Shown: one piece after another, positions 32,986 to 36,038 of the stretch | How the letters are laid out: every line of letters starts with the position of its first letter | How positions within the stretch are numbered: position 1 is the first letter of the stretch | Source of the DNA: Phycisphaerales bacterium Planc_01 | GTDB lineage: Bacteria; Planctomycetota; Phycisphaerae; Sedimentisphaerales; Anaerobacaceae | Assembly (NCBI GenBank): GCA_001603075.1 | Contig: LVBB01000041.1 | Location: forward strand, 62,001-126,000 | Length of the DNA: 64,000 nt | Direction of reading: 5' to 3' | Notes under the pieces: model-generated | The model's input: the letters and a program-made list of their open reading frames with translations, nothing else | What the model was told of the DNA's origin: nothing | Databases searched by the model: none | Made by a program: the position numbers and the translations under genes

Positions 32986-35586
32986 TTATCCCTTTTCCCA
33001 CAGGATCAGGCCGAGATCGTAGGGATTGACCTGGTCGGGGTGGTTCGGCAGCACGCGGACGGCCACACCATGCTGGCCGGTCGTCGTACAGGCCATCGAG
33101 CCGGTGAACCAGTGCTCTCCATCGTCTCCGACCCTCTGCTGGTGCCTCATCGGCACGGGCGAGCCCTCCTGAATGTTGCCCCAGGAATCGGTCGGTCCGG
33201 AATACAGCTCGACGCAGACGTCCTCGGGCCGGACATGGCCCAGCTTGACCAGGGCGCGAACGTTCAGTTCCGTGCCGACCTTCAGTTGCGGCTGACGCGG
33301 GTTCAACTGCTCGTCCGACGGGCCGTCGTTGACCTGGACCGTCACGTCCTTGACGGCGAATTGCGGCCAGGCCTCGCGAATCTCTGATTTCCAGCGGCTG
33401 AAGGCCTTGGCCCGCGTCATCGCCTCGGCCGCCAGGTAACGATAGCGCGCCGCCGCCGGGTTGTAGAACCGGCGTACGTACTCGGCCACCATGCGATGTG
33501 TGTTGAAGCGAGGCGCGACCCACTTGATGGTCGCTTTCATCTTCCCGATCCAGGCGCGTGGCAGATCGTCGGCAGTGCGAGTGTAATACAGCGGCACCAC
33601 CTCGTTCTCGAGAATGCTGTAGATCGCCTGGGCCTCGACCATGTCCTGGTAGTCCTGGCTCTGGTAGTCCTGCCCGTCGCCGATGACCCAGCCACCCTCG
33701 GGGATGTAACCCTCGGGCCACCAGCCGTCCAGCGTACTCATGTTCAGCACGCCGTTAACGGCCGCCTTCATCCCGCTGGTGCCGCTGGCCTCCATCGGGC
33801 GACGCGGGTTGTTCAGCCAGACGTCGACGCCGCGGACGAGGAAGCGCGCCACGTCCATGTCGTAATCTTCCAGGAAAACGATGCGGCGGCGTACAGTCTC
33901 CTCCGAAGCGAAATGGATGATGTGGCGAATGATCTCCTTGCCGCCGGTGTCCTTGGGATGGGCCTTGCCGGCGAAAATGAACTGGACCGGACGGTCCGGA
34001 TCGTTCAGCAGTCGGGCCAGACGTTTGGCGTCTTTGAGCAGCAGGTCGCCCCGCTTGTACGAGGCGAAACGCCGGGCGAAGCCGATTGTCAGGACCTTCG
34101 GGTCGAGGACCTCCTCCGCCTGCCGCAACTCACCATGACAGCGCCCGCGACGCTGCATCTGCGCCATCAGACGCTTGCGGGCGAACACGATCAGGCGGTC
34201 CTTGCAGCGCTGGTGCGCGCTCCACAATTCCTCGTCGGGGATCTGATCCGTCTGGTCCCACACCGACTTGTCGAAGACGCTCTCGGACCAGGAGGGGCCC
34301 AGATACCGCTGGTACAGACCGCCGATCTCCTCCGACAGCCACGTCTTGAGGTGGATGCCGTTGGTGATCGAGATGATCGGGACTTCCTTCTCCGGGATTC
34401 CCGGCCACAGCGAGCCCCACACCTCGCGCGAGATCTGCCCGTGCAACTTGCTGACGCCGTTGACGTAGCCGCTCAGCCGGATGGCCAGCACCGGCATCTT
34501 GAACGGTTCGCTCTCGTCGTCCGGCAGCATCCGTCCCAGGGACAGGAACTGCGTGCGGTTGACGCCCAGATGCGGGAAGTAGCTTCCGAAGTATTTGTCC
34601 ATCAATTCCACGCCGAACTCGTCGAGCCCGGCCTTGACCAGCGTGTGGACCGTGAAGACGTTGCCCGAACGCGTCGCCTCCACCGCCTCGTCGAACGTCA
34701 TGTTCTTGGCGTTGCGCAGTTGGCGAATCCGCTCGAGGGCCATGAAAGCGGCGTGTCCCTCGTTCATGTGACAGACCGTCGGCTCGATCCCCATCGCCAG
34801 CAGGGCTTTGAGGCCGCCGATGCCGAGCAGGATCTCCTGTCGGATGCGCAGCTCGCGGTCGCCGCCGTAAAGGTTGCTGGTGATCATGCGGTCGACCGAC
34901 GAGTTGGGGGCGATGTTGCTGTCGAGAAGATACAGCTTGATCCGACCGACGCTGACGCACCAGATCTGCGCCTGGACGCTGCGGCCGGGGTATTCGACGC
35001 TGATCGTCAGGGGCCGGCCGCTCTCCTTGCGGACCAGTTCGATCGGCATGTTGAACGCATCGTTCTCGACGTACGCTTCCTGTTGCCAGCCGTCGATGTT
35101 CAGGTGCTGGCGGAAGTAACCCTTCTGGTACATCAGGCCGACGCCGACCAGCGGGACCCCGAGATCCGAGGCGCTCTTGAGATGGTCGCCGGCCAGAATT
35201 CCCAGCCCGCCGGAGTAGATCGGAAGACATTCGTGCAGGCCGAATTCGGCGCTGAAGTACGCCACGACCGGCTGGGTCGTCTGCGGACAGACCTTGTCAT
35301 ACCACGTCGAGGACGACAGATACGACCGCAAGGCGTCCGCCGCCTGTTTCAGTTCGTTCAGGAAGCTCTCGTTGCGGGCCAGCGCCTGCAAACGCGTCTG
35401 CGAAACGCTGCCCAGCAGCTTCACCGGATTGTGGCCGCACGCCACCCACAGATTCGCATCGATCCGTCGAAACAGCTCGACCACCTGCGGGTTCCAGGCC
35501 CAGAACATGTTTCTCGCGACGTAGTCCAGCTCCTGCAGGGACTGTGGCAACGCTGGCAAAACGGTGAAGTTACGAACGCTCGGCAT
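32986..35586 (-). CDS. glgP: Alpha-glucan phosphorylase
   Basis: This 866-residue enzyme of the short GT35 branch has an N-terminal DUF3417-type helical domain (about 10-110, LDYVARNMFWAWNPQVVELF). It releases glucose-1-phosphate from glycogen or maltodextrin. Conserved blocks are VAYFSAEFGLHECLPIYSGG, CHMNEGHAAF, TNGIHLKTW and FARRFASYKRGDLLL. SGTSGMKAAVNG carries the pyridoxal-phosphate Lys. The C-terminal 170 residues form an extra beta domain, as in this branch. GAGGAG precedes the ATG. It probably works with the GH13 enzyme at 22691-24469. Confidence 0.92.
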   Translation of the reverse strand: MPSVRNFTVLPALPQSLQELDYVARNMFWAWNPQVVELFRRIDANLWVACGHNPVKLLGSVSQTRLQALARNESFLNELKQAADALRSYLSSSTWYDKVCPQTTQPVVAYFSAEFGLHECLPIYSGGLGILAGDHLKSASDLGVPLVGVGLMYQKGYFRQHLNIDGWQQEAYVENDAFNMPIELVRKESGRPLTISVEYPGRSVQAQIWCVSVGRIKLYLLDSNIAPNSSVDRMITSNLYGGDRELRIRQEILLGIGGLKALLAMGIEPTVCHMNEGHAAFMALERIRQLRNAKNMTFDEAVEATRSGNVFTVHTLVKAGLDEFGVELMDKYFGSYFPHLGVNRTQFLSLGRMLPDDESEPFKMPVLAIRLSGYVNGVSKLHGQISREVWGSLWPGIPEKEVPIISITNGIHLKTWLSEEIGGLYQRYLGPSWSESVFDKSVWDQTDQIPDEELWSAHQRCKDRLIVFARKRLMAQMQRRGRCHGELRQAEEVLDPKVLTIGFARRFASYKRGDLLLKDAKRLARLLNDPDRPVQFIFAGKAHPKDTGGKEIIRHIIHFASEETVRRRIVFLEDYDMDVARFLVRGVDVWLNNPRRPMEASGTSGMKAAVNGVLNMSTLDGWWPEGYIPEGGWVIGDGQDYQSQDYQDMVEAQAIYSILENEVVPLYYTRTADDLPRAWIGKMKATIKWVAPRFNTHRMVAEYVRRFYNPAAARYRYLAAEAMTRAKAFSRWKSEIREAWPQFAVKDVTVQVNDGPSDEQLNPRQPQLKVGTELNVRALVKLGHVRPEDVCVELYSGPTDSWGNIQEGSPVPMRHQQRVGDDGEHWFTGSMACTTTGQHGVAVRVLPNHPDQVNPYDLGLILWEKG

Positions 35587-35771
35587 TTCTACTCCTCACT
35601 AAGTCAATTCATCCTGATGCGAAGGCGCCGCACGGGCGAAGCAGGCCGTCACAGTCTCATCGGCAAATCCATCGACCGGCTTAACCGCAAAACCCCCAAG
35701 TCGCTGTAGCCTTTCGGCCCTCGAACGTCCGACAAGCTCGAACGCCCCGCCGCTGATACCCGAACCAATAA

Positions 35772-35799
35772 AAAAAGGCCTGTACAGACAGGCCTTTTT
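35772..35799 (-). terminator. Strong terminator of the small RNA
   Basis: AAAAAGGCCTGT-ctgt-ACAGGCCTTTTTT on the minus strand. The stem is perfect and flanked by A and T tracts, so it could work in both directions. Confidence 0.9.
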
Positions 35800-36003
35800 A
35801 TCTATTGCCAGCTCACCTCCACCTGTGCCGTAAGAATGGCTTTTGAAGAGAACCCATTACTGCAAGGTGGGCAATCGTTGCTCGCGTTCGAACGTCCTAT
35901 CGAGTAGGCATGTCCGACCCGGCGAGACCTGACTTCCCTCAGAACGGGTATCGGTTCTTTCAACAGTACGCATTCTCAACGGGCACTGCAGGGGTCAGCC
36001 CGC
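35772..36003 (-). ncRNA. Structured small RNA, 6S-like candidate
   Basis: A transcript of about 230 nt is predicted from its own promoter to its own terminator, with no open frame of note. It folds into one long rod. Reading 5' to 3', GTGCCCGT pairs with ACGGCAC, AGAATG with CATTCT, and TTGAAAGAACC with GGTTCTCTTCAA. A large central bubble follows, then CTCGC with GCGAG, CGGAC with GTTCG, and the apical CCTA-ctcga-TAGG. A single rod with a central bubble is the hallmark of 6S RNA (ssrS), which binds RNA polymerase. I have not matched conserved 6S sequence blocks, so the name is tentative. That it is a stable RNA gene is better supported. Confidence 0.6.
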
Positions 36004-36009
36004 AATTCT

Positions 36010-36038
36010 CTTATACCAGATGCGGATGCGTTCGTCAA
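36010..36038 (-). promoter_or_regulatory. Promoter of the small RNA
   Basis: On the minus strand: TTGACG (36038-36033), 17-nt spacer, TATAAG (36015-36010). Transcription should begin near 36003, exactly where the rod structure starts. Confidence 0.75.

Follow-up and report, generated by a model that had tools for sequence, protein, structure and literature searches.

The stretch of DNA analysed here (64 kb from the planctomycete Planc_01, called the window at its full length) almost certainly carries a 6S RNA gene of the ssrS type on its minus strand, at positions 35812-35997. In a scan of the whole 64-kb window against 4227 Rfam families, the 6S/SsrS family RF00013 matched the segment 35997-35812 of the minus strand with 58.3 bits against a gathering score of 46.4 and over the full model (positions 1-187), a result that supports the 6S RNA which an earlier sequence-only reading had proposed from the plan of the locus, with no decisive sequence block; the new abundant structured RNA which that reading had held in reserve is not needed. 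A local Rfam scan around the gene gave the same result for RF00013, and the family has a single match in the entire Planc_01 genome. The 6S-Flavo family (RF01685), which also represents a 6S-type RNA and had been named beside RF00013 for the family check, has no row in the whole-window scan, nor around the gene at E-values of up to 10, and in this the window gene differs from 6S-Flavo. Among the 14 control genomes used for the RF00013 searches, those of Escherichia coli, Bacillus subtilis, Caulobacter and Synechococcus were positive in both searches, and that of Lactococcus in one. Only one other Rfam family exceeds its gathering score in the window, the cobalamin riboswitch (RF00174; 16522-16734, plus strand, 101.6 bits). 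Rfam rows for Thr_leader, STnc and similar families near the terminator (E-values up to 10) lie far under gathering, are based on the terminator hairpin, and were dismissed as chance matches.

The gene, its control signals and its downstream neighbour are arranged as follows; R1 denotes a family 6S model built from the alignment of 65 relatives.

36033..36038, minus strand: -35 hexamer TTGACG; the best site starts with TTGA in 61 of 65 loci, the window included
36010..36015, minus strand: -10 hexamer TATAAG with a 17-nt spacer to the TTGACG; the spacer is 17 in 59 of 65 loci
35812..35997, minus strand: 6S RNA core, RF00013 positions 1-187 (58.3 bits, gathering 46.4); 190.7 bits with R1, a score to be read with the window's own sequence being among those used to build R1
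35950..35967, minus strand: probable pRNA template, with CCGAT in 64 of 65 loci and a start placed by analogy with E. coli 6S RNA
35772..35799, minus strand: intrinsic terminator AAAAAGGCCTG...CAGGCCTTTTT, with 12 pairs, a loop of 4 and a T-run
35657..35684, minus strand: FliA/WhiG-type promoter-like motif TTAAG-15-GCCGATGA, outside the 6S gene and ahead of the one for the phosphorylase
32986..35586, minus strand: alpha-glucan (glycogen) phosphorylase, 866 aa, PF00343 and PF11897, a recurrent neighbour of 6S

In its length, its rod with a central bubble, its own promoter-like site and terminator, and its single genomic match, the gene resembles the members of RF00013. It differs from them in its host, a Sedimentisphaerales-type planctomycete, in the gene order pheT-6S-glucan phosphorylase found in many of its relatives, and in a terminator stem that is here nearly fixed in sequence. 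The novelty is restricted to the host: the window provides a 6S example from a little-studied planctomycete group and is otherwise an ordinary 6S gene.

Within the family, 66 of 89 genomes contain an RF00013 match at E<=1 and 56 of the 89 one above the cut-off, and R1 detects 6S in 73 of the 89 genomes, including 29 of the 32 best assemblies. Thirteen of the 16 genomes without an R1 match are less than 90% complete, and three belong to the 32 best assemblies. In one genome (G031), a full copy is accompanied by a second, partial R1 match (C1:2718427-2718517, minus strand; positions 54-143, 87.3 bits) that represents either a fragment of 6S or a truncated relative. Under strict filters, RF00013 matches at E<=0.01 in 180 of 391 genomes of the phylum, 94 of the 391 having a match above the cut-off, show that 6S RNA is widespread in this phylum; 211 of the 391 genomes have no match under the same filters. 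Another genome (G397) has two RF00013 matches below the cut-off (C1:274203-274382 and C12:1007728-1007907; 39.6 and 38.5 bits for the pair), which point either to a pair of 6S genes or to a mixture of two strains in the assembly.

6S RNA seems to be hardly discussed for planctomycetes, and we found no joint treatment of 6S RNA and Planctomycetota in the searched literature from 2018 on. PMC5673643 reports no 6S RNA for Thermogutta terrifontis and relates that a survey by Wehner et al. (2014) had found it absent in two Pirellula-type species. The available part of PMC8567305 mentions 6S solely as an RNA targeted by the RNase Rbn, and that of PMC2864571 describes a pipeline that added 6S representatives and names no hosts for them. 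The present matches do not contradict the reported absences, because the phylum genomes are not assignable to those genera and 211 of the 391 are without a match. The 6S assignment settles the identity of a non-coding gene in a group with apparently little discussion of 6S RNA.

The rod and its central bubble, read earlier from the sequence, are indeed present. Over 36003-35770, the minimum free energy is -94.1 kcal/mol (z = -4.21), a value reached by none of 200 shuffled sequences. When the terminator is left out (36003-35808), the fold has -72.7 kcal/mol and is modestly unusual (z = -1.98, with 5 of 200 shuffles as low); therefore, folding energy by itself is no proof. The rod goes beyond chance because of the full-length covariance-model match and the covariation found among relatives. 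For the latter, 65 loci were oriented and aligned without reference to structure, one contig-end locus of the 66 being omitted, and the RNAalifold consensus is a 44-pair rod, in which 25 pairs show one double change or more. In these data 95.9% of the cells are paired, and both-side changes occur in 25 pairs and 171 cells, a cell count that is inflated by kinship among the sequences. Shuffled alignments yielded means of 14.6 pairs and 37.4 cells with both-side changes, and none of 500 reached the observed values, while slid-structure controls yielded 9-12 such pairs and only 40-47% paired cells. The 65 sequences were picked through their RF00013 matches, which biases the set toward 6S-like folds. 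The sequence-only reading had named lack of covariation among relatives as grounds for giving up the 6S assignment; with 25 of 44 pairs covarying, the assignment stands.

Both flanking signals that the earlier reading had placed on the minus strand were recovered: the promoter TTGACG-17-TATAAG at 36038-36033 and 36015-36010, and the terminator at 35799-35772 with 12 pairs and a T-run. A strict promoter scan omits TTGACG-17-TATAAG because its rule requires T at position 6 of the -10 hexamer. Promoter-like sites were judged by the best score (maximum 12) within 55 bases upstream at the 65 loci with enough upstream sequence. A score of at least 8 is reached by all 65 loci and by 485 of 1300 shuffled upstream regions and is thus a weak criterion alone; scores of at least 9 are found in 59 loci against 101 of 1300 shuffles, and scores of at least 10 in 38 loci against 11 of 1300. 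Six of the 65 loci score no higher than 8, and the site of one locus (L138) is unconvincing. A terminator follows 6S in 64 of the 65 loci with enough downstream sequence. Judged by sequence, with a promoter-like site (at least 9/12 in 59 of 65 loci) and a terminator (64 of 65), the gene may be an independent small transcription unit.

The terminator stem core, GGCCTG with CAGGCCTTT (GGCCTG/CAGGCC), is exact in 51 of the 65 loci, while the loop varies. The core pattern AAAGGCCTG-N2-10-CAGGCCTTT has a sole site in the 5.65-Mb assembly, the 6S terminator, and is palindromic, so that it occurs once per strand. All 44 strict A-tract/T-tract hairpins in the window and in the loci of 34 relatives, both strands being counted, contain this core; the window contributes two, both from the 6S terminator, and of the 42 in the relatives' loci, 40 lie directly after a 6S match and two are one hairpin in the locus L096. 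At this locus, the 3' half of 6S is readable beside a run of 100 N, and Rfam lists no 6S; it had been a candidate for a phosphorylase locus without 6S, was dropped on account of the visible 3' half, and is not counted as unlinked. The near-invariance of the stem exceeds the needs of a terminator.

The 5' side of the bubble contains the sequence (G/A)UUUGAAAGAACCGAU, exact or slightly changed among the loci, and the probable template end CCGAU is conserved in 64 of 65 loci. In E. coli 6S RNA, pRNA synthesis begins at the U of CCGAU, and the window gene shares this pentamer at the end of its probable template. By analogy, the pRNA would probably start opposite U 35950 and begin with AUCGGUUCUUUCAA. 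In an in-silico fold of a single sequence with this template masked, run without a control, ACCCGUUCUG pairs anew with the opposite strand of the bubble, in agreement with the rearrangement and release of 6S RNA by pRNA synthesis that PMC11077062 describes.

Taken together, the RNA is most likely, as we infer, a mimic of an open promoter that binds the housekeeping polymerase and is released by pRNA synthesis. The predicted transcript would start at about 36004, end at the terminator near 35770, and comprise approximately 190-235 nt. Its rod with the central bubble would imitate an open promoter, and it would bind the RNA polymerase holoenzyme containing the housekeeping sigma factor and make it less active, most likely in phases of slowing growth. 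During outgrowth, the polymerase would copy the 6S RNA from U 35950 into a short pRNA beginning with AUCGGUUCUUUCAA; this synthesis would free the partner strand, which could then re-pair across the bubble, and the complex would dissociate.

In 50 of 66 family loci, the window included, a homologue of the phosphorylase starts downstream of 6S in the same orientation, and the distance from the 6S core to this gene is 209-274 bp in 43 of the 50. For two of the 16 loci without a downstream phosphorylase, the sequence beyond 6S is shorter than 300 bp; 6S is also retained at loci where no adjoining phosphorylase was found. Seen from the other side, 77 phosphorylase loci were searched, 34 of them at 61-92% identity, and an R1 match lies upstream of the gene in 27 of the 77, all within the 34 at 61% identity or more. 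Four of these 27 matches (L044, L048, L055, L107) are located far upstream, 1.6-2.9 kb from the phosphorylase. Weak minus-strand R1 matches (16.8-30.1 bits) over 12 rods were discarded as mirror images. None of the 30 loci retained after the phylum search shows a phosphorylase match within the up to 1.5 kb available on each side. At one locus of another family of the phylum (L151, 1501-1750), an open reading frame that is rarA/mgsA-like by eye nearly abuts the 3' side of 6S.

Among the 61 loci with both flanks, homologues are shared by 636 of 1830 pairs upstream and by 1086 of 1830 downstream. The largest cluster of upstream genes comprises 37 of the 61 loci and appears to be pheT, judged by eye for six members and by Pfam for two, the upstream fragments from L007 and L029, which match PF03147 and PF17759. 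In the window, the gene upstream of 6S encodes a sugar transferase (PF02397), and the PF00343 of the downstream gene is the carbohydrate phosphorylase family. The placement of 6S at the end of a polysaccharide locus thus holds for the window and does not hold generally, since the largest group of relatives apparently has pheT at this position. With a sugar transferase upstream instead of pheT, the adjacency of 6S and phosphorylase seems to outlast change on the other side. Among the literature matches listed, none treats 6S RNA jointly with pheT, and for 6S and glycogen phosphorylase the searched literature, as far as its accessible text goes, offers only work on cyanobacterial biopolymers.

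Between the terminator and the phosphorylase lies a family motif, TTAAG-15-G(C/T)CGATTA, which resembles the FliA/sigma-D promoter, whose consensus is TAAA-N15-GCCGATAA. At spacer 15 the motif scores at least 11/13 in 48 of 50 gaps and in 2 of 1000 shuffled gaps; other spacers from 11 to 19 give 0-7 of 50 gaps. Scores of at least 11/13 occur at 31 of 33 scanned phosphorylase loci with at least 61% identity and at 1 of 42 more distant ones, the scan leaving out L039 and L086 of the 77. At five loci (L042, L043, L046, L052, L097), the 2.6-3 kb upstream of the phosphorylase yielded no match to 6S, the 700 bases upstream contain no N run, and the motif score is 13 throughout; the motif therefore tracks the phosphorylase and not 6S. 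A FliA/WhiG-type sigma factor (TIGR02479) is encoded at E<=1e-40 in 88 of the 89 family genomes, in 86 of them above the cut-off, and we put forward the hypothesis that it transcribes the phosphorylase. The motif pattern has 5 matches throughout Planc_01 against 2 for a reversed control, and no regulon was discerned from them. FliA-driven glycogen phosphorylase is found in none of the literature matches listed, which does not show its absence.

The recurrent position ahead of the phosphorylase bears on the question of whether the rod and its terminator are a free small RNA at all. They might instead form a 5' leader or attenuator that governs read-through into the phosphorylase, as could be argued from 50 of 66 loci having both genes on one strand at a similar distance, from the unusually conserved sequence of the terminator stem, and from possible pairing between the 6S loop strand UCAGGYCUU and the terminator's 5' arm, which averages -11.2 kcal/mol where shuffled 6S segments give -6.9. 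Re-pairing between genomes, however, gives a mean of -11.0 kcal/mol, also far below the shuffled segments, and 11 of 200 such re-pairings are as stable as the true pairs; without clear covariation, antitermination through this contact was rejected. Moreover, a conserved promoter-like motif of the phosphorylase itself lies 3' of the terminator and is kept at the five loci without a 6S match in 2.6-3 kb upstream, and 6S persists where no adjoining phosphorylase was found, so that we regard a leader as very improbable. The interval from 6S to the start of the phosphorylase gene was also examined for leader RNAs of known families, a candidate that was rejected because, apart from rows overlapping the terminator, Rfam has none there at E-values of up to 10.

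Equally slim are the prospects of an RNA like Ms1 of actinobacteria, scoring as 6S by accident. According to PMC9130861 and PMC11077062, Ms1 is a structured RNA that is related to 6S in structure and bound by RNA polymerase, yet it binds the core enzyme and not the sigma holoenzyme. The full-length RF00013 match above gathering and the conserved CCGAU template end argue against such a rod, as does the actinobacterial origin of Ms1 as described in PMC11077062; the Rfam scan up to E 10 has no Ms1 row, although Rfam may hold no Ms1 family. The reading as a 6S RNA gene is therefore retained.

The neighbourhood is the only mildly surprising part of this locus, and it offers a testable link between 6S RNA, alternative sigma factors and the use of storage sugar. 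It suggests that 6S, the alternative-sigma-type motif and the glucan phosphorylase may form one unit. That this unit has been selected, with 6S, read from a sigma70-type promoter, damping the housekeeping polymerase in starvation and the phosphorylase being expressed through an unblocked FliA/WhiG-type sigma factor, is a speculative proposal that we consider rather unlikely; if true, stored glucan would be mobilised precisely at the time at which general transcription is reduced. Two points speak against this proposal: the adjacency could be mere inherited gene order, and the promoter motif persists where 6S and phosphorylase are separated. About 40 nt upstream of the FliA/WhiG-type motif, at about 35727-35735 on the minus strand, lies a second conserved block, approximately aTATcGGAC (TTGTCGGAC in the window), which is a possible regulator site.
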